NCBI GenBank assembly: GCA_024408335.1
Contig: JAKSVB010000001.1
Location: 124,001-188,000 of the forward strand
Origin: Bacilli bacterium
Lineage (GTDB): Bacteria; Bacillota_I; Bacilli_A; RFN20; CAG-826
DNA: 64,000 nucleotides
Reading direction: 5' to 3'
A program made the translations under genes and the position numbers. Numbering within the stretch: the first letter of the stretch is position 1; each line of letters starts with the position of its first letter. The notes under the pieces are model-generated. The model was not told the origin of the DNA. It worked only from the letters and a program-made list of their open reading frames with translations, and did no database searches. Shown here piece after piece: positions 28,429 through 42,013 of this stretch.

Positions 28429-30915
28429 TTACTCGGCAGTTTTCTCTTGTGCTTTTAAGAACACTTCACGTTCCTTGCGAATCTTCTTGAAGGCTTTTCC
28501 AGCTCTTCTGAATTCGCCTAAGCCTTTCCAGAAATGTCCGTTGAACATGGTGATGAGGCCCATTAATTGACCCCAGCAGATAATACCGCCAGAAGCACGT
28601 GACATGTTTCTAAGTGGGGTAAGATACACGCCCATAGTCATGGTGTTTGCGGTTGCTCTTTGTCCAAATTTTGGAAGGAGCCAGATGATGAATCTAAGGG
28701 CGCCGTTGAAGAAACGGCCAAACCAGCCTTTTGCGTATCTCATATCGCAGATTGCTGTTTCTGGTTTTACTTCGATTCTGATCTTCTTTCTCTTTCCTTT
28801 TGGCTCAATTGTGGTTCTTTCGATCTTGCGGCCAAGAAGCTTTTCGAATTCGTCTTCGTGAACGTGTCTGACTTGGCCAGTGTAATAAGCAGGAAGTTCA
28901 GTCTTCTTGTATGGTGCTTTTGCGCCTGTTCCTTCTTGGTGGACCTTGCCAGTAAGTCTAATGTCCATCGAAGATGCGCCGACATAGATGTCATAGTCGC
29001 CTTCTTCGACTTCCCATTTGTTGGTTTTGACGTTGAAGTAACGGAATGAGTATTCGTCGAATGCGATAGCGACTTCTTTTTCTTCGCCTGGTTCTAATGC
29101 GACTTTGCTAAAGCCCTTGAGTTCGTATGTTGGACGGAAGACTTTGCTATCCTTGAGTCCGATATACATTTGAACGGCTTCTTTACCAGCGACTTTGCCG
29201 ATGTTTTTGACTTTGATGGTGATACCTTTTTCGTCAACTTTTAAGTCACTATATTCGAATTTCGTATATGAAAGACCATAACCGAATGGGAATCTGGTTG
29301 GGACTGATGCGGTTAAGAAATAACGGTAACCGATGAAGATTGATTCACGGTATTCGATTTCGTTGTCGCTCTTACCGAAGTGGTCAGCGCTTGAACAGTC
29401 ATCATATGCAACTGGAAGGGTTTCGGAAAGTTTGCCGGAAGGGTTAACTTTGCCAGTTAAGACTTCAAGCATTGCTCTTGCGCCCGCTTCTCCGCCGAGA
29501 TAGCCATGGACTAAACCTTTGACGTTTTCGACGAAAGGAAGCTCAACAGGTGAGCCTGCGCTGATGACACAGATGATTGGTTTTGCTGTGTCGCTTAAGC
29601 TTTGGAGTAAATCTAATTGGTTTTGTGGGATGCTGATTGTTTTACGATCAAGACCTTCGGTCTCGCTGAATTCATCAAGGCCAAGGAAAAGGAGAACGTA
29701 ATCGGCTTTTTCTGCTAAAGCTTTAGCCTTCTTCTTAAGTGATTCGCTCTTCTTACCATATCTCTTGAAGCCAGGTTCGTAACCAACGACTTCAAGGCCA
29801 AATTGCTCTTCTTTAACGCATTCGTTAATGGTTTCGATCTTAAGTGGGTTAACGATGCTTGAGCCAGCGCCTTGGTAACGTGGAGTATTAGCAAAATCAC
29901 CAATGACGGCGACTTTTGAGCCAGGTTTAAGAGGAAGAATATCTTCATCGTTCTTAAGAAGAACAACCGATTCTCTAGCAACTTCTAAAGCGTTGTTGTG
30001 ATGTGCCTCTTTATCAAATTCTTGGCTCTTGCCTTTGAGGTTTTCTGCTGTTTCAAGAACGAGGTCAATTAAACGATCGATAGCTTGATCAACATATTTG
30101 ACATCAAGGGTCCCTTCGTTGATGGCTTTGAGAACATCTAAGTTTGTTTCGCCACAAGTTGAAGGCATTTCAAGCTCGTTTGATGCTTTTAAACCAAGTA
30201 CGCGGTCATTTTCTCCGCCCCAGTCTGTAACGACTACGCCCTTGAAGCCCCATTCTTTACGAAGAATGTCCAAGAGGAGGTGATCATTCTCGTTAGTGTA
30301 TGTGCCATTGATTTTGTTATAGGAAGACATGACGGTTTTTGTGCCGCCTTCCTTAATCGCCATTTCAAAAGCTGTTAAATATATTTCGCGAAGGGCTCTT
30401 TCATCGATGATGGAATCGCTAGCCATTCTCTTTGTTTCTTGGTTGTTTGCAGCGAAGTGCTTAACACAAGCGCTGATGCCGTTTGATTGGACGCCACGGA
30501 TATATGCTGCGCCCATTTTACCTGCAAGGTATGGATCTTCGGAGAAGTACTCGAAGTTACGCCCACACATTGGGTTTCTCTTCATGTTGACGCCAGGACC
30601 CAAAAGAATTGAAACTTGGTGAGCGGCAGCCTCTTCACCGATGGTTTGGCCCATTAAATAGCCAAGCTCAGGGTTCCAAGTGTTTGCCGTTGTGGCACTC
30701 GATGGGAAGCAGGTTGCAGGGACAGAAGGGTTTAAGCCAAGGTTATCTGCTGCTGCAGCTTGTTTTCTAAGTCCTGTAGGGCCGTCTGACAAGAAAGCTG
30801 ATGGAAGATCAATCTTTTTAAGGTCTTGGGTTTGCCAGAAGTCCTTTCCGCTTAAAAGCGAAACTTTTTCTTCAATCGTTAATTGGTCGATCAATTTTTT
30901 GTGTTTGAGTGCCAT
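28429..30915 (-). CDS. Glycoside hydrolase family 3 beta-glucosidase
   Basis: This 828-residue GH3 enzyme releases terminal beta-linked glucose or similar sugars. Domain 1 carries SDGPTGLR, CVKHFAANNQET and the nucleophile Asp231 in GVVVTDWGG. Domain 2 follows with ESVVLLKNDEDILPL and AVIGDFANTPRYQGAGSS. A fibronectin-III-like domain (about 560-665) carries PFGYGLSYTKFEYS and EGDYDIYVGASS. There is no signal peptide, so it acts in the cytoplasm. Beyond the usual end, about residues 725-828 are a hydrophobic/basic extension (FIIWLLPKFG and an amphipathic stretch) not typical of GH3. It lies 27 bp after glf and has AGAGGAG before its ATG. Confidence 0.92.
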   Translation of the reverse strand: MALKHKKLIDQLTIEEKVSLLSGKDFWQTQDLKKIDLPSAFLSDGPTGLRKQAAAADNLGLNPSVPATCFPSSATTANTWNPELGYLMGQTIGEEAAAHQVSILLGPGVNMKRNPMCGRNFEYFSEDPYLAGKMGAAYIRGVQSNGISACVKHFAANNQETKRMASDSIIDERALREIYLTAFEMAIKEGGTKTVMSSYNKINGTYTNENDHLLLDILRKEWGFKGVVVTDWGGENDRVLGLKASNELEMPSTCGETNLDVLKAINEGTLDVKYVDQAIDRLIDLVLETAENLKGKSQEFDKEAHHNNALEVARESVVLLKNDEDILPLKPGSKVAVIGDFANTPRYQGAGSSIVNPLKIETINECVKEEQFGLEVVGYEPGFKRYGKKSESLKKKAKALAEKADYVLLFLGLDEFSETEGLDRKTISIPQNQLDLLQSLSDTAKPIICVISAGSPVELPFVENVKGLVHGYLGGEAGARAMLEVLTGKVNPSGKLSETLPVAYDDCSSADHFGKSDNEIEYRESIFIGYRYFLTASVPTRFPFGYGLSYTKFEYSDLKVDEKGITIKVKNIGKVAGKEAVQMYIGLKDSKVFRPTYELKGFSKVALEPGEEKEVAIAFDEYSFRYFNVKTNKWEVEEGDYDIYVGASSMDIRLTGKVHQEGTGAKAPYKKTELPAYYTGQVRHVHEDEFEKLLGRKIERTTIEPKGKRKKIRIEVKPETAICDMRYAKGWFGRFFNGALRFIIWLLPKFGQRATANTMTMGVYLTPLRNMSRASGGIICWGQLMGLITMFNGHFWKGLGEFRRAGKAFKKIRKEREVFLKAQEKTAE

Positions 30916-30942
30916 ATGTTACTCCTCTTATGCTTGGCTTGG

Positions 30943-32061
30943 TTAGGCTATGCCTAATTCAACTAACCTATCAAACATTTCTTTGGCGGCAACGATACAG
31001 TCATCCATGTCATAGTACTTGTAGACCGCAAGCCTTCCAAGGAAGAAGGTCTTTGGTTCAAGTTTTGATGAGAGCTCTTTGTATGCCTCAGCGAGAGCGT
31101 TGTTCTTCTCGTCGTTGATAGGGTAGCAAGGGATTTTTCCTTCTTCGAAGGTATCTGGGTACTCAAACGTTGCCAAAGTACTGTGATGGTTCTCGCAGTA
31201 TGGGTCGAACGCTTTATGTTCTGCGCACCTTGTATATGGCTGATCATGGGTTGTGAAATTGATGACCGGATTGTTTTGGTAACGGTCCATTTCAAACCAT
31301 TGATTGTCAAATTTAAGGGATCTGTACTCTAGTTTACCAAGTTTGAAATCGAAATATTCATCTAACCTTCCGGTGTAGATAATGTGATTAGCGATTTTTT
31401 CAAATTCCGACCTTTTACTAAAGAAGTCAACGCCGGTTTGGACATCAATTCCCTCAAGCAAATTCTCGATCCATTTTGAGTATCCCCCCTTTGGGAGACC
31501 TTGATATGTGTCGTTGAAATAGTTGTTATTATATTCGAATCTGAGAGGAAGTCTTCTGATGATGCTTGCTGGAAGCTCTTTGCAGTCTCTTCCCCATTGT
31601 TTTTCTGTGTAACCTTTGATGAGTTTCTCGTAGATTGTTCTTCCAACAAGTTTGATTGCTTGTTCTTCAAGGTTTTTAGGTTCTCCTGGAACTTCTTTTG
31701 ACTCTTCAGCAATCTTTGCCTTAGCCTCTTCTGCGGTTGTAACACCCCAAAGTTCGTGGAAAGTGTTCATGTTGAATGGCATGTGGTAGAACTCGCCATG
31801 ACAGTTTGCGATTGGCTCGTTGATGAATGGATATACTTCAACGTTATCTTTGAACATGCTCCACGCAAATTCGTCTGATGTGTGGAAGATGTGTGGTCCA
31901 TATGAGTGGATGATGATTCCATCTTTGATTTCGGTAGAGATGTTGCCTCCAAGGTCATCTCTCTTTTCTATAACTAAAACAGTTTTGCCAGCTTTCTTGA
32001 GCAAGTTTGCAATTGTAGCGCCTGAAAGGCCGCTTCCAACAATTAAATAATCGTAATGCAT
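30943..32061 (-). CDS. glf: UDP-galactopyranose mutase
   Basis: Glf converts UDP-galactopyranose to UDP-galactofuranose with reduced FAD. The flavin-binding N-terminus YDYLIVGSGLSGATIANLLKKAGKTVLVIEKRDDLGGN is clear, as are the substrate motifs GPHIFHT, GYTEKQWGRDCKELP and EYRSLKFDNQWFEMDRYQNNPVINFT. Its 372 residues match bacterial homologues. AGGAG is placed well before the ATG. With galE it suggests galactofuranose in a cell-surface polysaccharide. It is followed at 27 bp by the GH3 gene on the same strand. Confidence 0.95.
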   Translation of the reverse strand: MHYDYLIVGSGLSGATIANLLKKAGKTVLVIEKRDDLGGNISTEIKDGIIIHSYGPHIFHTSDEFAWSMFKDNVEVYPFINEPIANCHGEFYHMPFNMNTFHELWGVTTAEEAKAKIAEESKEVPGEPKNLEEQAIKLVGRTIYEKLIKGYTEKQWGRDCKELPASIIRRLPLRFEYNNNYFNDTYQGLPKGGYSKWIENLLEGIDVQTGVDFFSKRSEFEKIANHIIYTGRLDEYFDFKLGKLEYRSLKFDNQWFEMDRYQNNPVINFTTHDQPYTRCAEHKAFDPYCENHHSTLATFEYPDTFEEGKIPCYPINDEKNNALAEAYKELSSKLEPKTFFLGRLAVYKYYDMDDCIVAAKEMFDRLVELGIA

Positions 32062-32110
32062 AAAGTGACTCCTATTGACCCTTAGTTTACCCTTTTTTTG
32101 TAAACAATGG

Positions 32111-32122
32111 TATATTTACCAT
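32111..32122 (+). promoter_or_regulatory. Leaderless promoter of the M24 peptidase gene
   Basis: TGGTATATT is a TGn-extended -10 whose hexamer (32111-32116) ends exactly 6 nt before the ATG at 32123. No ribosome binding site exists. The hexamer is also the centre of an inverted repeat, ATGGTA-TATT-TACCAT (32107-32122). Confidence 0.65.
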
Positions 32123-33295
32123 ATGGATCAACTAAAACTAATAAACAACACCCTCCAAGCCGAAGGCGCTGACGCTTGGATAATCGTGGATTACGAAAAC
32201 AAAAACAAAACCCTTGTTAGCTTCCTTGGTGATAAGATGCTCACAAGAAAAATCTTCGCAGTTTTCCCTGCAAATCGCGCTCCTTTTTTAATTTGCCACT
32301 CAATTGACACGGTATTTTTAAAAGATTGCGGATTTGATTTGAAAATCTATCACACTTGGGAAGAGATGCTCGAAATTGAAAAACAAGAATTCAAAAACTA
32401 CAAAAAGGTTTTAATGGATATTTCTGAGAACGGACTCTTACCACGTATCTCTTTAGCGGATTATGGATCCGTTGATTTTATCAAGAAGCTTGGCATCGAA
32501 GTCGCTTCAAGCGGCAACATCCTCCAACGTTTTAACGCTGTATATGATGAAGAGGCCTATGAGCTTCAAAAGCTCGCCAACAAGAAGAACCTTCAAATCA
32601 AAGATGAGGCTTTCGCAAAGATAAAAGAGCTCATCGAGAAAAAAGGAGAAACATCCGAATACGAAATTCAGCAATTCATTTGTAATCGTTATCACGAAGA
32701 AGGCATGGTTTATGATGAGGCGCCTATCGTTGCTATAGGCAAAAATGCCTCAGATCCACATTATGGCCCAACAGACAAATTGAGCTCGCCAATCAAAAAA
32801 GGCGACCTTGTACTAATCGATATGTGGGCGAAGATGGATCATCCAAATGCCGTATATTCAGATATCACTTGGATGGGGTATGTTGGTGAAGAAGTTCCTG
32901 CCATCTACAAAGAAAGATTTGAGGTTTTAAGAAACGCAATCGAATTATCCTTTGAGTACCTCGAAAACAACCTGCCTAACAAAGCCGTGCAGGGATACGA
33001 AGTTGACCGAGCCTCAAGAGATTACATTGAGTCTCAAGGCCATGGGCAATACTTCATCCATAGAACCGGACACAACATAGCGGTAGACGTTTCTCCTCAT
33101 GGTCCTGGCGCTAATATCGATGACTATGAATCGCATGACACCAGAGAACTTATTGATGGAGTTTGCTTCTCCCTCGAACCTGGGATATATGCGCCAGACT
33201 TTGGCATGAGAAGTGAGACAAACGTATACATTAAAGATAGAAAACCTATTTACGTTGCTGGCCACCAATTAGAGATAATTCCAATTCTCAAATAA
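32123..33295 (+). CDS. M24 family metallopeptidase (Xaa-Pro aminopeptidase type)
   Basis: Pita-bread-fold peptidase that removes N-terminal residues before proline. The N-terminal creatinase-like domain (1-150) precedes a catalytic domain whose metal ligands are visible: two Asp in LIDMWAK and VYSDITW, His in HRTGHNIAVDVSPHGPG, Glu in FSLEPGIY and Glu in RSETNVYI. I start at the ATG at 32123 (MDQLKLINN), giving 390 residues. The frame is open further upstream from a TTG, but that stretch contains the promoter. The message is probably leaderless. The gene is divergent from glf and ends at a bidirectional terminator. Confidence 0.88.
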   Translation: MDQLKLINNTLQAEGADAWIIVDYENKNKTLVSFLGDKMLTRKIFAVFPANRAPFLICHSIDTVFLKDCGFDLKIYHTWEEMLEIEKQEFKNYKKVLMDISENGLLPRISLADYGSVDFIKKLGIEVASSGNILQRFNAVYDEEAYELQKLANKKNLQIKDEAFAKIKELIEKKGETSEYEIQQFICNRYHEEGMVYDEAPIVAIGKNASDPHYGPTDKLSSPIKKGDLVLIDMWAKMDHPNAVYSDITWMGYVGEEVPAIYKERFEVLRNAIELSFEYLENNLPNKAVQGYEVDRASRDYIESQGHGQYFIHRTGHNIAVDVSPHGPGANIDDYESHDTRELIDGVCFSLEPGIYAPDFGMRSETNVYIKDRKPIYVAGHQLEIIPILK

Positions 33296-33310
33296 CACAT
33301 GCGAATACAA

Positions 33311-33337
33311 AAAAGACCCCTTAATAAGGGGTCTTTT
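33311..33337. terminator. Bidirectional terminator between the M24 peptidase and hsp20 genes
   Basis: AAAAGACCCCTTA and TAAGGGGTCTTTT form a perfect 13-bp stem around one A, with T-runs in both directions. It serves the convergent genes on either side. A separate 14-bp palindrome, TTTCGTGCACGAAA, follows at 33335-33348. Confidence 0.85.
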
Positions 33338-33378
33338 CGTGCACGAAAGGAGAGAAGATGCACGATTAAATATGGAGA

Positions 33379-33771
33379 CTAGTTGATGGCGATTTTGCGT
33401 GCAGCGTCTTTTTCCTCATTCTTTGGGAAGGTGAGGGTTAAGACTCCGTCTACATAAGATGCTTTGATGTTTTTCTCGTCTTTTAAGCCAACGTAGAAGC
33501 TTCTAGAAGCGGTTCCGTAGGATCTCTCGAAACGGACGTAATTCTTTTCTTCTTTTTCTTCTCTAGCGACAGAGACGGTGAGATAACCATCTTCTAATGT
33601 GATGTTAATGTTTTCTTTTTTGACACCAGGCATTTCGATGTTCATGATGTAATCATTTTCTGTTTCCTCAACGTCTGTTCTCATTGAGTAAGTATTGTTA
33701 TATCTGCTTCTTTTCTCTAAAGGATAGAAGAGATCGAAGAATGGATCGTAGTTGTTAAGTTCAAATGTCAT
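33379..33771 (-). CDS. Small heat-shock protein, Hsp20/alpha-crystallin family
   Basis: ATP-independent holdase chaperone that binds unfolding proteins. The alpha-crystallin domain (about 30-125) runs from NTYSMRTDVEETENDYIMNIEMPGVKKENINITLEDGYLTV to FERSYGTASRSFYV and the closing ASYVDGVLTLTFPKNE; a C-terminal KIAIN follows in place of a clear IxI. I start at the ATG at 33771 (MTFELNNYDPFF), which has AGGAGG 7 nt upstream, giving 130 residues. Two CIRCE operators and a TTGACA/TAATAT promoter precede it, so HrcA repression is expected. Confidence 0.93.
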   Translation of the reverse strand: MTFELNNYDPFFDLFYPLEKRSRYNNTYSMRTDVEETENDYIMNIEMPGVKKENINITLEDGYLTVSVAREEKEEKNYVRFERSYGTASRSFYVGLKDEKNIKASYVDGVLTLTFPKNEEKDAARKIAIN

Positions 33772-33794
33772 TTTTTTATCCTCCTGTTGGATTG

Positions 33795-33821
33795 TTAGCA
33801 CTCGTACTACCTAAGTGCTAA
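33795..33821 (-). promoter_or_regulatory. CIRCE operator 1 (HrcA site), start-proximal
   Basis: TTAGCACTC-N9-AAGTGCTAA matches the CIRCE consensus (TTAGCACTC-N9-GAGTGCTAA) at 17 of 18 arm positions. It lies between the hsp20 -10 box and its ribosome binding site, around the expected transcription start. Confidence 0.93.
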
Positions 33822-33825
33822 CTAC

Positions 33826-33853
33826 ATATTACGCTTAGTTTTAGCACTGTCAA
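33826..33853 (-). promoter_or_regulatory. hsp20 promoter
   Basis: On the minus strand TTGACA (33848-33853), a 16-bp spacer and TAATAT (33826-33831) form a sigma-A type promoter. The -35 lies inside the distal CIRCE element. Confidence 0.8.
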
Positions 33854-33867
33854 TACCTAAGTGCTAA
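33841..33867 (-). promoter_or_regulatory. CIRCE operator 2 (HrcA site), distal
   Basis: TTAGCACTG-N9-AAGTGCTAA is a second CIRCE element, 16 of 18 arm positions matching, 46 bp from the first. It covers the -35 box of the hsp20 promoter. Confidence 0.9.
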
Positions 33868-33871
33868 TTTT

Positions 33872-34276
33872 TTAAATATTTTTACCTCCTTTGCTTAGTT
33901 TGAAGAACATTGTTTTGAGATAGTCGGATACCTTAGAGCTATAAGCTCTAAAATCAATTAAAAAGAACGTGTTGGTTGAGTTGTTTCTAAATACAGAAAA
34001 TAGTTCATCGCTCACTTCTTCGCACATTTTGCATGCGCATACACCTGCAATATCCTCATAATATTTTGATTTTTCAGGTTCCTCTTTTGATGAGAAACCC
34101 CATCCGCATATCAGTGATAAAGCCTTTTGGAAGTTAAGCAGCAATTTCTTTTTTAAGCCGGTGAGCTTATATGATCCGCTTATCTCACAAGAATACGGTT
34201 CGACTGCCTCCTTAATGAGTTTTGTAAAATAAGAAACCATTTCAGTCTCCGCTTCTTGATAAATTAGGTTGTTCAT
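33872..34276 (-). CDS. Hypothetical cytosolic protein with CxxC-like cysteines
   Basis: I do not recognise this 134-residue protein. The start at 34276 (MNNLIYQEAETEM) is chosen because GGAGGGGG lies 6 nt upstream. The predicted structure is mostly helical with no signal peptide or membrane helix. Cysteines lie at SLICGW and in GVCACKMCEEV, the latter a C-A-C-K-M-C cluster that could bind metal. It stops just upstream of the distal CIRCE element and is oriented towards hsp20, so it might read through into that gene, although hsp20 has its own promoter. Confidence 0.6.
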   Translation of the reverse strand: MNNLIYQEAETEMVSYFTKLIKEAVEPYSCEISGSYKLTGLKKKLLLNFQKALSLICGWGFSSKEEPEKSKYYEDIAGVCACKMCEEVSDELFSVFRNNSTNTFFLIDFRAYSSKVSDYLKTMFFKLSKGGKNI

Positions 34277-34328
34277 AATTCCCCCTCCACCTTCATATAG
34301 AGGAGATTTTGAAAATTTGCGCAAAAAA

Positions 34329-34353
34329 AGAGCCGATTTTTAATTTCGGCTCT
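34329..34353 (-). terminator. Terminator of the four-helix membrane protein gene
   Basis: AGAGCCGA pairs with TCGGCTCT and is followed on the minus strand by seven T residues, 19 bp past the stop codon. Confidence 0.85.
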
Positions 34354-34371
34354 AAATGTTTGTTCAATTAA

Positions 34372-34827
34372 CTATTTCTTAAGGAAGGCTTTGACACCGC
34401 CAAAGATGGCTAAGAATCCACTTAAGAATGCCACAGCGGCTGTAGCAATGAATCCCCATGCAAGGCTGAGTTCAAATGATTTGCCATCGATTGTTAATGG
34501 TGAAACCAATGTTAAGACAGCTGCGATGACCATGCAAAGGCCGCCGGCGATTGCGAGGAATCCACCGAACTTGCCACCCCACCAGCCAAAGGCTGTTCCG
34601 ACGAGCTCTAAGAATGTGCCGACGATGAAGAGGACGAACATGGCAACCAAGACATCTGATTCTTTGATGGTTATTGGTGTTGAGTTGTTAGTGAAAACAA
34701 AGTCATAGCCGCGAACTAACGCACCGCTTGCAGAGATTCCAGGAGCGATTGGCATAAGGAATGCAATAAGGGCGAGCATTAACGCGAAGATCCCAAAGAG
34801 ACCTGTTATTGATAAGTTCTTTTTCAT
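34372..34827 (-). CDS. Hypothetical four-helix membrane protein
   Basis: This 151-residue protein has four predicted membrane helices: ITGLFGIFALMLALIAFLM, VAMFVLFIVGTFLELVGTAF, FGGFLAIAGGLCMVIAAVLTLV and LAWGFIATAAVAFLSGFLAIFG. An external loop of about 30 residues separates helices 1 and 2. I do not recognise the family; the layout resembles small tetraspan proteins of unknown function in Firmicutes. It has its own terminator and lies 70 bp after the PIN-domain gene. Confidence 0.65.
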   Translation of the reverse strand: MKKNLSITGLFGIFALMLALIAFLMPIAPGISASGALVRGYDFVFTNNSTPITIKESDVLVAMFVLFIVGTFLELVGTAFGWWGGKFGGFLAIAGGLCMVIAAVLTLVSPLTIDGKSFELSLAWGFIATAAVAFLSGFLAIFGGVKAFLKK

Positions 34828-34897
34828 AAATAATTCCCTTTTCTAAATCGAATTAATCTTACTAGTAACGCAAATTTTCTTCAAGAAGACTTAAACG

Positions 34898-36643
34898 TTA
34901 CTTAAGTTCCTTAAGTTTTGCTTGAAGAGCCTTGATTCCAAACTTAAGTTCTTTTGATTCGCCTGGTTTTAAGTGGCGGATGCGAACGATTTGTTCCTCA
35001 ATGTCCTTGATGGCAGAAGCTTTAGGGTAATTTGGGTTATTAAGGTTGGCGTTAAGAATCTTGTCGTTCTTTTCAGCCTCGGCAAATCCAGAGCTTCGTT
35101 TAACTTCGGCTTTTTCAGCTGGCTTTGCTGGTTCTTTTTCCTTCTTTGCTGGAGCTTTCTTGGAAGGCTTTTTAGGTTTTTCGGCCACTACAGGTTCTGC
35201 AGCAGGCTTTTCTTCCTTTTTAGCCTTTGAAGAAGTCTTCTTTGTTGTTTTTGGAGCCTTTGCTTTTTTTGCCTCAGGTTCTTTTTTCTCTTCTTTCTTA
35301 GGCTCTTCAACTTTTGTTGGTGCCTTCTTTTTAGCTTTCTTTGGTTTTGGTTCCTGCTTAGGAGCTTCTTCCTTAGCTGGTTCCTCCACTTTCTTGGTTT
35401 CTTTTTTCTTAGCAGGTTTTTTAGCCTTTTCTGGCTCAGGTTTAACCTCAGGCTTTGGTTCCTGCTTCTTCTCCTCAACCGGTTTCAAATACACGTGGAA
35501 TTCGTTCTTTGTGCGTTCGAAGACGAGGGTTAAAGATTTGATTTTGATTTCTTTTAATGTTTCAGGTTTTAAATCTGCCGCACCTTCGGAAAGCGCAAGA
35601 TCGTCTGTCGTTAAATCAACAGGGCCATGCACGCCTGCAAAAAAGGCGACGGTTGGGTCTCTAAACATCCAGCCATAATGATCGCCAAGTCTCTTTAAAG
35701 CTGCGCTTGGAGTCTTGCCATATTCGTAATATGGTTTGGCTTTAGCTGGAGCTTCCTGCTTAGGTGCTGGTTGCTCTTTGGCAGGTTTCTTTTGGGCTGG
35801 TTCTTTTTCTTTTGGCTTTGGTGCCTCGAGTTTTTTCTTTTCAGTTAGAAGTTTCTCTTCTGTAAGTTTTAAGTTGAGTTGCTTCTTTTCTTCTTCGGAT
35901 AAACCCTTTAGTAAAGCGATCTGATTTGCAATATCATCAAGCTTTTTGTTAACAGGGTAGTTTGGGTTGTTAAGATTAGCCAAAAGGGCGTTTTCTTTCA
36001 AAATAACCTGTGGTTTGTCAGGGTTTTTTGGTTTTTGAGGGGCTTTTGGTTTCTCCTCGACTGGTTTTCTTTCTGGTTTCTCAACGTTCTTTTTGCCGTT
36101 GAAGTTCCTTGCTGGAACAGGTGCGCTTCTATCGTCGAACTTGATTTCGAGTTCTCCAGATCTTCCGATTTGGTAAACGTGGATGTTGCGTCCTTTTTGA
36201 GATTCGAGATTGTTTAGACCTCTTATGTCTGCTTTAAGCTTTTTGTCTTGGGTAATAACAAGAATCTTTTGACTGATTCTTAGATCTGAGACTTTAGCAA
36301 ATATGGCTCTGTCCGCGAAAGCGTCTTTGTGTAATGCTTTTTCGATTTTAAGAACTTTGTTGCGGTTCCATATGCTTTGGTCGTGTTTCACGATTTTTAA
36401 TGCACGTTTTGCATTAATTCTCTTCTCGTGTTCTCCACTCTTTGAATGCTTCTTAAGTTCAGCCATGCATTCTCCGAGGATCACGACTCTCAATCCTTCT
36501 TTCCAATACCCATGAGATGTCACTAAGGCATCCATAAAGAGCGGAAACGAATCTTCCATCAAGGAACAAGTATCCAAGAGCACTAAGTCAAAATTTGAAA
36601 GCAATTTTGCTAGGCTCGAGGCTTTTGTTTCCTCGCTGTACAT
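34898..36643 (-). CDS. PIN-domain protein with Lys/Pro/Ala/Glu-rich linkers and two NLNNPNYP modules
   Basis: The N-terminal 165 residues look like a PIN ribonuclease domain, with acidic residues in order: Asp24 (LLDTCSLM), Glu58/Glu62 (GECMAEL), Asp111 (ADRAIFAK) and Asp133 (ITQDKKLKADI). The rest alternates low-complexity linkers with three folded parts. These are a helical module starting NLNNPNYP (223-230), a central globular region (about 305-388, YYEYGKTPSAALKRLGDHYGW to FHVYLKPV), and a second NLNNPNYP module (533-540) at the C-terminus. Each module continues with a helix containing DDIANQI or KDIEEQI. I know no family with this layout. AGGAGG precedes the ATG. Role in RNA turnover is inference. 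Confidence 0.7.
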   Translation of the reverse strand: MYSEETKASSLAKLLSNFDLVLLDTCSLMEDSFPLFMDALVTSHGYWKEGLRVVILGECMAELKKHSKSGEHEKRINAKRALKIVKHDQSIWNRNKVLKIEKALHKDAFADRAIFAKVSDLRISQKILVITQDKKLKADIRGLNNLESQKGRNIHVYQIGRSGELEIKFDDRSAPVPARNFNGKKNVEKPERKPVEEKPKAPQKPKNPDKPQVILKENALLANLNNPNYPVNKKLDDIANQIALLKGLSEEEKKQLNLKLTEEKLLTEKKKLEAPKPKEKEPAQKKPAKEQPAPKQEAPAKAKPYYEYGKTPSAALKRLGDHYGWMFRDPTVAFFAGVHGPVDLTTDDLALSEGAADLKPETLKEIKIKSLTLVFERTKNEFHVYLKPVEEKKQEPKPEVKPEPEKAKKPAKKKETKKVEEPAKEEAPKQEPKPKKAKKKAPTKVEEPKKEEKKEPEAKKAKAPKTTKKTSSKAKKEEKPAAEPVVAEKPKKPSKKAPAKKEKEPAKPAEKAEVKRSSGFAEAEKNDKILNANLNNPNYPKASAIKDIEEQIVRIRHLKPGESKELKFGIKALQAKLKELK

Positions 36644-36668
36644 AATTTTTTGTACCTCCTATGTTTTC

Positions 36669-36705
36669 ATTTTACACCATTCTGAGGTTATTAACCTCTA
36701 GAATG
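36669..36705 (-). promoter_or_regulatory. Promoter and palindrome upstream of the PIN-domain gene
   Basis: A TAAAAT -10 box on the minus strand (36669-36674) is preceded by a 28-bp imperfect palindrome (36678-36705). Its core GAGGTTA-T-TAACCTC is perfect, and ATTCT/AGAAT arms continue across a bulge. No T-run follows, so an operator is likelier than a terminator for the upstream ROK gene. Confidence 0.45.
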
Positions 36706-36706
36706 T

Positions 36707-37654
36707 TTAATCAAGCCAAAGAGCGGCTGCCCCAAGAAGGCCAGCATCGTTCTTTAATTCTGAAATGAGAATCTTGACTGCTGGTGTTCCTTTGAAGCCG
36801 TAATGAAGTTTTTTAAGCTTCTTTTCGATTTCGTCAGACAAAGCCTTTCCTTGGTTTGATAGTCCGCCGCCCAAAATAACGGCTTCTGGGCGGAAGATGT
36901 TGCAGAAATTAGCGATACCAAGCGTAAGATCGTCTTCATATTCATTGATAACCTTGATTGCGGTTTTGTCGCCTCTTTCCGCTGCTTCAAAACAGGTTCT
37001 TCCAGATACTTTCTCAAGGTCGCCGTCAACACATTCCCACATAAATGACGATTTGTCGTTAAGCATAGCTTCTTTTGTGTTTTTGATAAGCGCGGTAACA
37101 GATGCGTAAGCCTCAAAGCAGCCTTTAAGACCGCAAGTGCACTGTCTTCCGCCTTTCTCAATAACAACATGGCCAAGTTCAGTGCCTTTTCCTTCTTTTC
37201 CTTCGTAAAGTTTTCCATTAAGGAAAAGTCCGCCACCAACGCCTGTGCCAAGAGTTAACAAGACTAAATCGCTATAGTCCTTGCCAACACCGAATTTAGC
37301 TTCTCCAAGCATCGCAGCATTCGCGTCGTTTGTGACCTTGACTGGTAAACCAGTAATCTCTTGGATCGTATCTTTAAGAGGGGCTTTCTTCCAATTGAGG
37401 TTGCCAGAGAACTCACAAACACCGGTTACGTTGTTGATAGAACCTGGGCAGCCTATACCAATACCGACGAAATCCTCTTTAGTAAAACCTTGCTCAGTAA
37501 TGTTTTGATTGATTGCATCACCAAGTCTTTTGAGTGTTTTAGTTTGTGTTTCTGGTACGACCTTCAATACAAATTTGTGCTTAATCTCTCCATCTGGAGT
37601 AACGAAAGCGCATTTAATTGACATACCACCAATATCGATTCCAAGATACATCAT
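36707..37654 (-). CDS. ROK family sugar kinase (glucokinase type)
   Basis: The 315-residue protein phosphorylates a hexose, probably glucose. It has the phosphate motif GIDIGGMSIKCAF at the N-terminus, VTNDANAAMLGEAKFGVGK with the catalytic Asp, LTLGTGVGGGLFLNGKL, and the ROK zinc motif HVVIEKGGRQCTCGLKGCFEAYAS. No helix-turn-helix precedes the kinase domain, so it is a kinase and not a NagC-type repressor. GGGG/GGAAAG precedes the ATG. It could phosphorylate glucose released by the GH3 enzyme (inference). Confidence 0.92.
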   Translation of the reverse strand: MMYLGIDIGGMSIKCAFVTPDGEIKHKFVLKVVPETQTKTLKRLGDAINQNITEQGFTKEDFVGIGIGCPGSINNVTGVCEFSGNLNWKKAPLKDTIQEITGLPVKVTNDANAAMLGEAKFGVGKDYSDLVLLTLGTGVGGGLFLNGKLYEGKEGKGTELGHVVIEKGGRQCTCGLKGCFEAYASVTALIKNTKEAMLNDKSSFMWECVDGDLEKVSGRTCFEAAERGDKTAIKVINEYEDDLTLGIANFCNIFRPEAVILGGGLSNQGKALSDEIEKKLKKLHYGFKGTPAVKILISELKNDAGLLGAAALWLD

Positions 37655-37686
37655 AATCTTTCCCCTGTTTTCTTAATTTTGCTCGT

Positions 37687-37704
37687 TTTTATTAATTAAT
37701 AAAA
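37687..37704. promoter_or_regulatory. A/T-only perfect palindrome upstream of the ROK kinase gene
   Basis: TTTTATTAATTAATAAAA is an 18-bp perfect palindrome 33 bp upstream of the kinase ATG. It may be an operator or simply AT-rich promoter DNA. No clean -35/-10 pair was assigned. Confidence 0.3.
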
Positions 37705-37798
37705 GACGTCAGTATCTCTATTTGTTGAATTTTTAGCGTTTTTAAAAAGCAAAAAGCACAGCAAATTCTGATTGTTTTTGAGAGACGAAAACAAAAAA

Positions 37799-37826
37799 AC
37801 GCAGGATTTGCATAAGTTTCCTGCGT
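37799..37826. terminator. Terminator of the marR-ABC exporter operon
   Basis: ACGCAGGA pairs with TCCTGCGT, with T-runs on both sides (minus: TTTTTTTG). It lies 13 bp past the stop of the last ABC gene. Confidence 0.85.
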
Positions 37827-37839
37827 TTTTGTGTGTCTT

Positions 37840-39645
37840 TTAGTTCATGTTGAACTGTGAATTGTAGAGACCAGCATAGAAACCGTTTTGAGCAATAAGC
37901 TCTGCGTGGTTTCCTGTCTCGATGATGTTGCCGTCCTTCATAACAAGAATCATGTCGGCGTTTCTGATGGTAGACAATCTATGGGCAATGACGAAGGACG
38001 TTCTTCCTTTCGTGAGTTTGTCCATGGCTTCCTGAATCTCTATTTCAGTACGGGTATCAACATTTGAGGTTGCCTCATCTAGGATGAGTAACGGAGCGTT
38101 CTCGACCATCGCTCTGGCAATAGTAACGAGTTGCTTTTGTCCTGACGACAATGAGCTCTCTTCTGTGAGGCTGGTGTTGATGCCGTCTTTCAAAGTCGAA
38201 ACGAAGTAAGACAAGTTAGCCTCCTCAAGAACCTTGTTAAGTTCATCGTCAGAAATGCCGTTTTTGTTGAAAGTGATGTTGTCTTTAAGTGAACCTTCGA
38301 ACATCCAGGTGTCTTGGAGAACCATGCCAAATAGGTCTCTAACCTCTGTTCTTGGCATCTCCTTGATGGAAACGCCGTCGATTAAGATATCGCCATCAAG
38401 AACTTCGTAGAATCTCATCAAGAGATTGACGATTGTTGTTTTTCCTGCGCCTGTTGGGCCAACGATTGCAACCTTCATGCCAGGTTTAACCTCTGCGGTA
38501 AAATCAGGAATGATGATTTTGTCTTCGTTATAGCCAAACTTAACGTTTTTGAACTCGACTTTTCCTTTGAGGTTAGCGAGATCCAACTTACGAGATTTTT
38601 CACTTTCGTCTTCTTGCTCTTCTTCCTCCAAAAGGCCAAATACACGCTCAGCAGAAGCTGCGGCCATTTGAAGCGAGTTCATAGATTGAGCGATTTGAGT
38701 CATTGGGCTTTGGAATAAGTTGATGTAGATCATGAAGGCAGTGATTGTACCAAAGGTAATGCCTCCAATGTCGTTAGCAAGGAGTAATCCGCCGACTAAA
38801 CAAATAGCTGCATAAGAGAAGTATGAGATGAAACCGAGTAAAGGCTGCATCATACCGCCCGCAATTTGGGCTTTAAACATTGTCCAATGGAGCTTTTCGT
38901 TTGCTGCATCAAACTTTTTACCTTTAGTAGATTCAGCGTTATACGCTCTAATGAGCGTGTGGCCTGTGAAGTTTTCTTCAATGATGCCATTAATCAAACC
39001 GACCTCTGTTTGTCTTCTAACAAATAAAGGCATAGCAATCTTCATGATGAAGGCTAGAACAAGCATGACAACCGGAATCGAAGCAAGGGCTGCAAGAGCC
39101 ATTTGCCAACTAGTAATAAACATAGCGATGAGGACGCCGACTAACATCAACACCGATTGGAAAAGCATCGTAATGCTTTGTTGCATTGATTGGCCAATTT
39201 GATCGACGTCGTTAGTGATGATAGATAGCGTGTCGCCGTGAGCGTGGCCATCAAAATACTTAAGCTTCATCTTGTTGATCTTATTTGTGATGTCGCTTCT
39301 TAAATCAAAACAGTATCTTTGCGAAACGGTGCTCATAATGAACCCGGAAACGAATGTCATGAGGGCGTTAGAAACATAGAAGACTATAAGAACTATGGCA
39401 ATATCACCAATCTTTCCTAAATCGATGCTTCCTTTAGCTGCACCATTGGTGATTTCGTTAGTCAAATCCTTTAGGAACTGTGGCGCAACAATAGAGATGA
39501 CAACAGATATCGAAACGCAGATAAACGAAATCAATAATTGAGGTAAATATTTACGGAACGAGCCCATTAATCTAGCGACATTTTTCTTCATGTCGACTTT
39601 TTGCCTTGGGCCCATAGGCGCTCTTCTTCCCATCATTCCTGGCAT
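37840..39645 (-). CDS. ABC exporter half-transporter, canonical-site subunit
   Basis: The 601-residue protein has an N-terminal six-helix exporter domain (about 30-330) and a C-terminal ATPase. The ATPase carries GPTGAGKTT (Walker A), LSSGQKQLVTIARAM (signature, Ser for Gly), and LLILDEATSNVD with the catalytic Glu. The N-terminus MPGMMGRRAPMGPRQ is a proline/glycine lead often seen in this subgroup. It overlaps the upstream ABC gene by 13 bp. The pair resembles the heterodimeric multidrug exporters BmrCD, LmrCD and TM287/288. Substrates cannot be told. Confidence 0.93.
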   Translation of the reverse strand: MPGMMGRRAPMGPRQKVDMKKNVARLMGSFRKYLPQLLISFICVSISVVISIVAPQFLKDLTNEITNGAAKGSIDLGKIGDIAIVLIVFYVSNALMTFVSGFIMSTVSQRYCFDLRSDITNKINKMKLKYFDGHAHGDTLSIITNDVDQIGQSMQQSITMLFQSVLMLVGVLIAMFITSWQMALAALASIPVVMLVLAFIMKIAMPLFVRRQTEVGLINGIIEENFTGHTLIRAYNAESTKGKKFDAANEKLHWTMFKAQIAGGMMQPLLGFISYFSYAAICLVGGLLLANDIGGITFGTITAFMIYINLFQSPMTQIAQSMNSLQMAAASAERVFGLLEEEEQEDESEKSRKLDLANLKGKVEFKNVKFGYNEDKIIIPDFTAEVKPGMKVAIVGPTGAGKTTIVNLLMRFYEVLDGDILIDGVSIKEMPRTEVRDLFGMVLQDTWMFEGSLKDNITFNKNGISDDELNKVLEEANLSYFVSTLKDGINTSLTEESSLSSGQKQLVTIARAMVENAPLLILDEATSNVDTRTEIEIQEAMDKLTKGRTSFVIAHRLSTIRNADMILVMKDGNIIETGNHAELIAQNGFYAGLYNSQFNMN

Positions 39646-41507
39646 AATCCGAGTTCCTCCTTTGATAATTGTGATAAAGCAATATCTAAGTAGACTTTGC
39701 AGTTCTTAAGTAGCTCTTTATGAGTGCCGATTCCCTCAATTTTGCCATCATCGATGACAATGATCTTGTCGGCATCCATGATTGTTCCGATACGTTGGGC
39801 AACGATAACTTTGGTTGAATCCTTTTCGGTTTCTTTTAAATTAGCCCTAACTTTCTTATCGGTCTTGTAGTCAAGAGCGGAGAACGAATCGTCAAAGATG
39901 TAGATCTCTCTATGAAGAGCGATGGCTCTAGCGATACAAAGCCTTTGGCGTTGGCCGCCGGAAACGTTTGTTCCGCCTTGTGCGATTTCGAAATTGTAAC
40001 CGTTCTCTTTTGCTTCAACGAATTCTTTTGCTTCAGCAACTTCACACGCTTTAACGATGTCTTCATCGCTCATAGAAGGGTTTCCAAGAGCAACGTTTTC
40101 TTTGATTGTTCCTTTAAAGAGGAAACCTTTTTGAGGAACAAGACCCATAAACGATCTAAGCGTTGCTTGGTTAAGGTTTTTGACATTGACTCCATCAACC
40201 AAAACTTCGCCTTCGGTTGCGTCATAGAATCTTGTCATAAGGTTGATGATAGAGGTTTTTCCGCTTCCTGTAGCACCAATAAAGGCAACCGTTTCGCCTT
40301 GTTTGATTTCAAAGTTCAAATTGCTTAAGACGTTTTGATCGCCATCAGGATATTTGAATGATACGTTTTTGAATTCGATGGTGCCTTTTGAGGTGGTTTC
40401 CTCTTCAGAAGCAGGATCAACGATGGATGGTTCTTTCTCCAAGACTTCGTTGATACGTTTAGCGCAAACGGAAGCTCTTGGCCAAAGAACAAACATCATC
40501 ATGAGCATCAAGAACGACATGATGATTTGTGAACTAAGTGTTGAGAAGGCGGTTACTGTTGGATAGTCGATGGTGCCTTTGTTGATCAATGACGCGCCAA
40601 TCCAGTAGATAGCTAAAGTAATGCCGTTCATTATGAGCATCATCACAGGGCTCATCAAAGACATAACTCTTCCTGTGAAGATGTTTATATCAGTGAGGTC
40701 TTTGTTTGCCTTTTCGAATTTTTCTGTTTGGTATTCTTCCTTGTTGAAGGCTCTGATAACTCTAATGCCAGTAAGGTTTTCTCTAGAAATGCCATTAATC
40801 CTATCAATCATCTTTTGAACGACTTTGAACTTAGGAAGAACGACGATGATCATCATGGTGATGAAGACTAATAAGGCAAGGACCGCCATGATTGTGGCCA
40901 TAGTTAAATCAAAGCTTGAAGCACGGATCTTTAAGATAGCCCAAATAGCTGTAACAGGAGCGGCAAAGACCATACGCATCATCATAACGTTTGTGATTTG
41001 GACGTTTTGAATATCGTTTGTGGTTCTCGTGATCAAGCTTGCAGTCGAGAAGCCGTTGATTTCCTCTAAGGAAAAACGATCGACTTTTCTATAAATCTTT
41101 GTTCTGACTGTGGTTGATAAATCTGCAGAAACGTAGCTCGCCAAAACGGAGATAACCGCTTGAACGAGGACCATTAAGCCTGCAAAGGCGAGCATTAAGC
41201 CAGCGTTAATCCAAATGTCAGCTTGAGTGGCGTTTGCAATTGGAGCGATGAGTTCCCTAACTTCTTCAGGGAGAAGAGGGTTATTTAACGCGCCTGCCCA
41301 TCCTCCCATGGCTTGAAGCATTCCATCAATCTCTGGTCCTAAAAGTTCTGGGTGATTGTGGTAGTTAACATAGGTGATTGAGCCAATAACGTCTTTTATG
41401 TAGTCGACGATTGTCATCGTACACCATACCTGGAGAACGGTGAAACCGAGGATCAACACAACAAGAAGCCAATCACGTTTTTTAAAGTTTTTGTATAGCT
41501 TAAACAT
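39633..41507 (-). CDS. ABC exporter half-transporter, degenerate-site subunit
   Basis: The 624-residue partner has a six-helix membrane domain with an unusually long first extracellular loop (about 40-90). Its ATPase domain has GATGSGKTS (Walker A) and VSGGQRQRLCIARAI (intact signature). After Walker B it reads YIFDDSFSALD, with Asp where the catalytic Glu should be. This is the expected degenerate site of heterodimeric exporters, in which only one of the two ATP sites hydrolyses. It overlaps the marR-type gene by 8 bp and the next ABC gene by 13 bp. Confidence 0.93.
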   Translation of the reverse strand: MFKLYKNFKKRDWLLVVLILGFTVLQVWCTMTIVDYIKDVIGSITYVNYHNHPELLGPEIDGMLQAMGGWAGALNNPLLPEEVRELIAPIANATQADIWINAGLMLAFAGLMVLVQAVISVLASYVSADLSTTVRTKIYRKVDRFSLEEINGFSTASLITRTTNDIQNVQITNVMMMRMVFAAPVTAIWAILKIRASSFDLTMATIMAVLALLVFITMMIIVVLPKFKVVQKMIDRINGISRENLTGIRVIRAFNKEEYQTEKFEKANKDLTDINIFTGRVMSLMSPVMMLIMNGITLAIYWIGASLINKGTIDYPTVTAFSTLSSQIIMSFLMLMMMFVLWPRASVCAKRINEVLEKEPSIVDPASEEETTSKGTIEFKNVSFKYPDGDQNVLSNLNFEIKQGETVAFIGATGSGKTSIINLMTRFYDATEGEVLVDGVNVKNLNQATLRSFMGLVPQKGFLFKGTIKENVALGNPSMSDEDIVKACEVAEAKEFVEAKENGYNFEIAQGGTNVSGGQRQRLCIARAIALHREIYIFDDSFSALDYKTDKKVRANLKETEKDSTKVIVAQRIGTIMDADKIIVIDDGKIEGIGTHKELLKNCKVYLDIALSQLSKEELGLCQE

Positions 41508-41946
41508 TACATTTCTCCTTTCCGTATATCTTTAGCACCGCTTCGTTTATGTCCTTGCACAAAGCGATGTATTCATTAACTTTTTCAATGCCAAGTTCAT
41601 CGATGACCTTTCCACAGAAGCTAAGAGTCTCCTCTTTGAACTTGTTGAATTGTTCAATTCCTTTATCGGTTAGATAAACAACGGTTTTTCTTTTGTCTTC
41701 CGAACAGGTTTTTCTTTCAATGCATCCTGCTTCTTCAAGACTATTTAACGCCACGGCTATTCTTGCGGTCGATAGTCCGGAGTTACACGCTAAATCTTTT
41801 GAATAGACGGTTTTGTCTTTATGGCAATACAGGTAGCTGATGATAAATCCCGTTCCCTCTTTGTTCTTCATGAACTTTTTCATAAAGAGCAAAGGTGCGT
41901 TTTCTTGGATTTTGCTTATAACGGTTTCGGTTGTTTTTATATCCAT
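41500..41946 (-). CDS. MarR family transcriptional regulator
   Basis: The 148-residue protein has a winged helix-turn-helix with the MarR pattern KDLACNSGLSTARIAVALNSLEEAGCIERKTCSEDKRKTVVYLTDKGIEQF (about 50-105), flanked by dimerisation helices. It is the first gene of the operon with the two ABC half-transporters, a common arrangement in which the regulator represses its own operon until a toxic ligand binds. AGGAGG stands 7-8 nt before the ATG, and an inverted repeat next to the -10 is a likely operator. Confidence 0.9.
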   Translation of the reverse strand: MDIKTTETVISKIQENAPLLFMKKFMKNKEGTGFIISYLYCHKDKTVYSKDLACNSGLSTARIAVALNSLEEAGCIERKTCSEDKRKTVVYLTDKGIEQFNKFKEETLSFCGKVIDELGIEKVNEYIALCKDINEAVLKIYGKEKCNV

Positions 41947-41971
41947 TTAAGGCGCCTCCTTTTTTAAATTG

Positions 41972-42013
41972 CTAACATCGTTAGTATTTTATGTATATTT
42001 TGTGGAAGGTCAA
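41972..42013 (-). promoter_or_regulatory. Promoter and operator of the marR-ABC operon
   Basis: On the minus strand TTGACC (42008-42013), a 16-bp spacer and TAAAAT (41986-41991) form the promoter. The inverted repeat CTAAC-ATC-GTTAG (41972-41984) begins one base after the -10, where MarR binding would block initiation. Confidence 0.7.

Follow-up and report, generated by a model that had tools for sequence, protein, structure and literature searches.

A conserved, probable PIN-domain nuclease joined to twin helical modules and a central domain, confined to two genera of Bacilli among the genomes sampled

We describe a probable PIN nuclease with a new, conserved architecture which, as far as sampled, is confined to two genera. 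Its gene lies in a 64,000-nucleotide stretch of contig JAKSVB010000001.1 (assembly GCA_024408335.1), referred to below as the window, from a relative of uncultured Bacilli of gut and rumen, and is a conserved single-copy gene in these related genera. The protein combines the PIN domain with two kinds of small domain that matched no family in the libraries searched, a helical module present in two copies and a central α/β domain, held together by long linkers (Table 1). None of the titles listed by a literature search concerned this protein. On balance, we favor the view that it is a tethered chromosomal endoribonuclease, long kept in these bacteria and docked on a partner through its twin modules.

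Table 1. Parts of the PIN-module gene in the window
Feature	Position	Strand	Basis
Whole gene, PIN - module A - central domain - module B, 581 aa	34898..36643	-	ORF, ATG start
PIN domain, residues 1-172	36128..36643	-	AF2 model, fold searches, acids
Linker 1, residues 173-211, low complexity	36011..36127	-	pLDDT <50 at 170-209
Module A, residues 212-273, helical	35825..36010	-	profile match, pLDDT, homology to module B
NLNNPNYP of module A	35954-35977	-	residues 223-230
Linker 2, residues 274-297	35753..35824	-	pLDDT <50 at 275-301
Central domain, residues 298-386, alpha/beta, His-Gly at 339-340	35486..35752	-	profile match, AF2
Linker 3, residues 387-516, Lys/Pro/Ala/Glu-rich	35096..35485	-	charge, pLDDT nearly all <50
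Module B, residues 517-581, C-terminal	34901..35095	-	profile match, pLDDT
NLNNPNYP of module B	35024-35047	-	residues 533-540

The four-part architecture is conserved and under purifying selection

Family members were taken from 116 loci by the motif DT[CS]SL; eight loci without it were left out, including L116 and L005, the latter being kept in alignments A1 to A5 with a non-ATG codon set as its start. The 56 distinct members were reduced to 50 by dropping four flagged as truncated at one end (L021, L026, L028, and L034) and two near-copies (L009 and L016). Each of the four parts was represented by a profile of 11 to 13 members, with which all 56 were searched; 12 of the 50 retained members had served in building the profiles. 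The PIN domain, module A, central domain, and module B were found in this order in 46 of the 50 complete members and in 36 of the 38 that were outside profile building. Module A is missing in L011 and L083, the central domain in L055, and both modules in L013. In the ortholog L013, one stretch (L013:619-840, genome G017, minus strand) is similar to the FtsK gamma winged helix, with E 1.6e-4 and 21.8 bits against a Pfam cut-off of 30.6 and E 0.078 against FtsK structure 2j5p.

The gene is under purifying selection, as computed from dN/dS. Median dN/dS was 0.08-0.10 across the five parts tested, as estimated from nonindependent pairs (38 in the case of the PIN domain, 23-27 in that of each remaining part) picked by a PIN identity of 0.72-0.985, with median dS above 1 for the central domain and linker 3.

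The N-terminal domain has a predicted PIN fold with invariant acids

Twelve of the 17 ten-residue blocks of the PIN model have pLDDT values of 85-94, and the lowest block is at 72 (AF2). With this model, Foldseek returned two rows below E 0.001, both of them PIN domains (AF0591, E 5.1e-4; SMG6, E 7.5e-4). The top VIA-align rows, which are tied within 1 of Z, were chain 5K of the yeast 90S pre-ribosome 6ke6 (Z 12.5, rmsd 3.2, 123 aligned, 25%), SMG6 2hww (Z 12.3, rmsd 3.2, 130 aligned, 14% identity), and Utp24 entry 5yz4 (Z 11.8, rmsd 3.3, 124 aligned, 27% identity). Among PDB chains, the sequence profile of the PIN part also put Utp24 at the top, at a weak E of 0.028. The first-pass annotation, made from the sequence alone, had proposed a PIN-like fold; AF2, Foldseek, and VIA-align bear this out, and the computed model places the predicted PIN domain nearest to Utp24 and SMG6, both RNases of eukaryotes.

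The same annotation listed an acidic tetrad of Asp24, Glu58/62, Asp111, and Asp133. D24, E62, D111, and D133 are invariant in all 50 members, which upholds the tetrad; E58, offered as an alternative second acid, is present in 24 of the 50 and drops out. The four invariant acids align on Utp24 residues whose spacing (37, 33, and 19) equals that of the Schizosaccharomyces pombe acids Asp70/Glu107/Asp140/Asp159, as given in PMC5895043. The protein therefore has the fold of a PIN-domain nuclease in the model and its conserved active-site acids in the alignment. A catalytically dead scaffold, like degenerate PIN proteins such as Utp23 (whose domain is termed degenerated in PMC5895043), would fit the long linkers and repeated modules, but the invariance of all four acids makes it highly improbable.

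The window protein gave only weak rows against Pfam, NCBIfam, and PHROGs, all below or without a cut-off; the best Pfam row, also below cut-off, was an unrelated plant-virus family, and a sequence search of the PDB gave a single row at E 0.51. When ten PIN parts were scanned with Pfam PIN_4 (PF13638; cut-off 21.9 bits), L004 (28.2 bits) and L027 (25.2 bits) passed, L035 and L053 were below the cut-off, and the window protein had no row; among whole members, 9 of the 50 matched PIN_4 at E 0.01 or better. The best of the ten PIN parts against Pfam Fcf1 (PF04900) reached 14.9 bits (L004) versus a cut-off of 21.4, and Fcf1 was absent among the families matched by the 50 members at E 0.01.

The twin modules are homologous

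The two copies of NLNNPNYP are 310 residues apart, and the exact repeat is nine residues, ANLNNPNYP. The longest exact repeat in 2000 residue shuffles of the protein was eight residues, seen in one shuffle. Family profiles of modules A and B aligned over 58 columns with 98.7% probability (E 1.6e-16), while control pairs (module A or B with the central domain, module B with the PIN domain) stayed below 1%. Judged from these profiles, modules A and B are true homologs. The duplicated module that had been noticed about 310 residues apart is thus confirmed, with an exact repeat one residue longer than described. It does not begin with the octapeptide, as had been assumed: in the full AF2 model, NLNNPNYP forms the turn between the first two helices of each module (module A, residues 212-224 and 231-246; module B, residues 518-534 and 541-556). 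In the full-length model, pLDDT is 81-90 over residues 211-270 and 88-95 over residues 521-581.

In profile searches, no described domain or family in the libraries used matched the module. From the PDB, the module B profile retrieved only designed coiled coils and rows that look like chance, the best at E 0.0099. When the module B profile was run on the window's own genome, module B itself was recovered at E 6.5e-31, and up to the limit of E 10, the module was found just in its two copies within the PIN gene.

The central domain and the linkers

The central domain, for which an AF2 model of residues 298-392 alone has a pLDDT of 91.7 and pTM of 0.82, contains a His and a Gly that are invariant in 47 aligned sequences. 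It had been set down as a domain of unknown family; it is about 90 residues long, and no family in the libraries searched matches it. The best Foldseek E values were 0.12 in the PDB and 0.092 in viral models, and the central-domain profile gave at best integrase rows at E 0.026 in the PDB. The best VIA-align row was the SrrB PAS domain (Z 4.1, rmsd 4.2, 71 aligned), tied with other PAS rows, KICSTOR/GATOR1 chains, and YeeU. No known fold was assigned from these rows.

In its own genome, the central-domain profile matched the PIN gene; one further row was weak (E 0.27). Across the order sample of 279 genomes, the central domain tracks the PIN domain: its profile matched 62 genomes at E 0.01 or better, of which 60 also belong to the 62 with a PIN match. 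The exceptions are G133 (a short piece) and G155 (a weak row), which have a central-domain match without a PIN match, and G200 and G146, which have the reverse.

All linkers are predicted to be disordered (pLDDT below 50), in line with the earlier description of low-complexity Lys/Pro/Ala/Glu linkers. The net charge is +6 for linker 1 and +22 for linker 3 of the window protein (pI 9.9); across the family, linker 3 has a median net charge of +15 (range -4 to 36, n=46). The Lys/Pro/Ala-rich tails may resemble those of histone H1. The chief rival explanation starts here: the protein could be a DNA-associated nuclease or nucleoid protein whose Lys/Pro/Ala tails coat DNA while branched or damaged DNA is the target of the PIN domain. 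The basic charge of linker 3 in most members fits this reading, as does the PIN fold common to FEN-type DNA nucleases, which appear lower in the VIA-align list (ExoIX 3zdd, Z 7.3, rmsd 4.3, 127 aligned; Taq 1taq, Z 7.2, rmsd 3.8, 125 aligned); the divergent L013, in which an FtsK gamma-like stretch occurs and the modules are absent, points the same way. However, Utp24 and SMG6 give higher Z and tighter rmsd, and the FtsK-like stretch is below the Pfam cut-off and occurs in 1 of 50 members. We therefore consider a DNA-associated role doubtful.

The gene is near-universal in one genus and probably descends within a two-genus clade

With the PIN part as a single query, the family sample of 116 genomes gave 14 positive ones, the window's own included, all in two genera. 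A profile search found the gene in 35 of 37 genomes of the own genus, with one match each, and in all 21 of those with a completeness of 90% or more and a contamination of 5% or less. The order sample contained 62 positive genomes out of 279: the 35 of the own genus, 26 of the second genus, and one far relative, G146. At least five second-genus genomes among those listed had no match, and since two of the listed ones, G044 and G094, are of good quality, the gene is not needed everywhere. The class sample (11 of 395 genomes) and the phylum sample (13 of 392) yielded matches from the same two genera and revealed no further genus with the gene.

A collection of named genomes held 84 candidate stretches, 57 of which could be confirmed. 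They come from genomes labeled as uncultured Bacilli, Bacillales, Erysipelotrichaceae, Firmicutes, Bacillota, Mollicutes, or bacterium; ten carry the labels rumen, reticulum, abomasum, or feces, and one belongs to Candidatus Alloenteromonas pullistercoris (Bacillota incertae sedis according to NCBI). Since the gene is near-universal in one genus and present in most of the second, it probably encodes a house enzyme rather than a toxin. A VapBC toxin, already dismissed in the first-pass annotation, was rejected on the same ground together with the length of 581 residues and the absence of an antitoxin neighbor.

In a tree of 45 rows, three of which had their genus assigned from contig positions, three own-genus members group with all 17 second-genus members on a branch with 95/93 support, and the two genera separate in 6% of the bootstrap trees. 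Descent within the two-genus clade is likely; because the tree lacks a clean split between the genera, strictly vertical descent is not proven. A mobile or phage origin was rejected: the PIN part had no match in phage records at E 0.01, and none of 21 stretches in viral contigs was confirmed.

Neighboring genes do not name a partner

Upstream of the gene lies a ROK-family protein (36707-37654). Downstream are a small protein (34372-34827) that has one sub-cut-off Pfam row and is membrane-like by eye, a gene without any Pfam row (33872-34324), and, as the third gene, an Hsp20-type gene (33379-33801). No antitoxin-like gene adjoins the PIN gene. No gene is constant in the 58 neighborhoods compared (57 loci and the window), many of which end at contig ends and whose genes were grouped by blastp, which may split diverged genes. 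The ROK cluster was present in 9 of the 58 and that of the membrane-like protein in 10, the window included in both counts; the cluster of the gene without a Pfam row was present in 8. The Hsp20 cluster is found in the flanks of 18 neighborhoods, including the window, in both genera (e.g., L059 and L088). The complete order ROK - PIN - membrane-like - unknown - Hsp20 recurs in seven named loci out of 57, L059 to L064 plus L066, with a small extra ORF in one of the seven; elsewhere, the neighbors differ. Since there is no constant neighbor, gene order indicates no partner, and naming one on this basis was rejected.

In seven loci, the gene directly upstream falls in a cluster whose sample protein (L103:4471-5898) is membrane-like, with a repeated stretch that presumably resembles DUF1508/YegP repeats. 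Rfam at gathering scores gave nothing within 30000-42000. Promoter-like sites were fewer than the shuffle mean (3 versus 7.2), and terminator-like ones were similar (7 versus 5.3).

Far relatives place the PIN unit in other settings

In G146 (L116:3432-3950, minus strand), the PIN domain stands alone in a protein of ~170 residues (PIN_4, 27.4 bits), flanked by what we take to be recG-like and DAK-type kinase-like genes. A Butyrivibrio plasmid carries a PIN relative in a 251-residue protein. In Fusobacterium vincentii, a 773-residue frame (L118:3911-6229, NZ_CP084075.1) joins PIN, protein kinase, and CFI-box parts; its PIN is 28% identical to that of the window protein over 149 residues (E 1e-11) and passes PIN_4 with 27.3 bits against the cut-off of 21.9. 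The NZ_CP084075.1 record, which contains a second match, is 2.1 Mb long and labeled a plasmid; it is chromosome-sized and has one listed feature. CFI-box is also the annotation of a related protein on a Lysinibacillus plasmid, and a further relative occurs in Streptococcus salivarius. Neither the module nor the central domain had a clear match in the three far relatives checked. A search limited to these three sequences gave at best module B in G146, with E 0.002 and 5.8 bits, and in Fusobacterium the central domain, with E 0.011. The PIN unit is thus used in several settings and is joined here to new parts.

These relatives bear on the second rival explanation, a stress or defense effector RNase restrained by the docking modules until a signal arrives. 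Far PIN relatives are indeed found in apparently regulated proteins such as the Fusobacterium kinase and CFI-box fusion, whose kinase part matches PD-T4-6 in PADLOC (E 3e-9), the Butyrivibrio relative matches CARF_PIN (E 5.6e-4), and the Hsp20 cluster recurs near the gene. However, the window protein has no PADLOC row at E 0.1 or better, the phage and viral searches described above gave no confirmed match for the PIN part, and the gene is single-copy and near-universal in one genus and under purifying selection. Therefore, a stress or defense role is unlikely.

DISCUSSION

The preferred reading, a tethered endoribonuclease, can be sketched as follows. The PIN domain, with D24, E62, D111, and D133, would cut single-stranded RNA in the manner of Utp24 and SMG6. 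Two helical docking modules would grip a partner, which might display one surface twice, be bound in two copies, or be the module itself in a dimer; the central domain may provide a third contact. The long Lys-rich disordered linkers would let the nuclease swing and add weak affinity for nucleic acids. RNase activity, RNA as the substrate, and docking by the modules are what we infer from these features. The "repeated ligand" suggested in the first-pass annotation, for example the ribosome or parts of a degradosome, stays equally conjectural, since there is no constant neighbor and neither the modules nor the central domain has a convincing match elsewhere in the genome.

A more specific version, in which the enzyme is an RNase of the Utp24/SMG6 type for ribosome-bound RNA, held by the new twin docking modules and the central domain, is tentative and rather doubtful. 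It would serve surveillance or rRNA trimming, having arisen in two gut and rumen Bacilli genera on top of RNase Y and RNase J.

Among the closest known proteins, Utp24/Fcf1, the 18S pre-rRNA endonuclease of eukaryotes, has the PIN fold and four equivalent acids in common with it. PMC5895043 gives Cys103, Cys132, His134, and Cys142 as the zinc ligands of S. pombe Utp24. In a profile alignment, the window PIN has no Cys or His at the matching columns, and the protein was therefore not filed as Utp24; the module and central-domain profiles likewise returned no Utp24 row from the PDB. SMG6, the endonuclease of nonsense-mediated decay, is alike in PIN fold at low identity, the comparison being with its PIN domain. 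Pfam PIN_4 covers the PIN part only and takes in some members over its cut-off, leaving the window protein without a row. The F. vincentii protein has a related PIN but combines it with a kinase and a CFI-box in place of any clear module or central domain.

Among bacterial PIN proteins, small toxins are the best known. The present one resides in genomes that also contain the usual RNases. In the family sample, RNase Y (TIGR03319) was detected in 111 of 112 genomes (108 over cut-off), TIGR00649, which we take to be the RNase J family, in 111 (106 over cut-off), and YbeY (TIGR00043) in 105, all over cut-off; all three are present in 8 of 8 sampled own-genus genomes. There is therefore no sign that it substitutes for a lost RNase Y, RNase J, or YbeY, an option that was rejected, and it looks like an added tool. 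Since the same RNases are present as in its kin, no vacant role points to its substrate.

In outline, the PIN-module protein is similar to degradosome scaffolds of the RNase E type, which combine an N-terminal nuclease with a disordered basic tail and small docking sites; the catalytic fold of RNase E differs from PIN. The twin module offers a ready bait for finding the partner. If the protein does cut RNA on a docked partner, it would add to the scaffolds of the RNase E and RNase Y types a further means of directing an RNase in bacteria.
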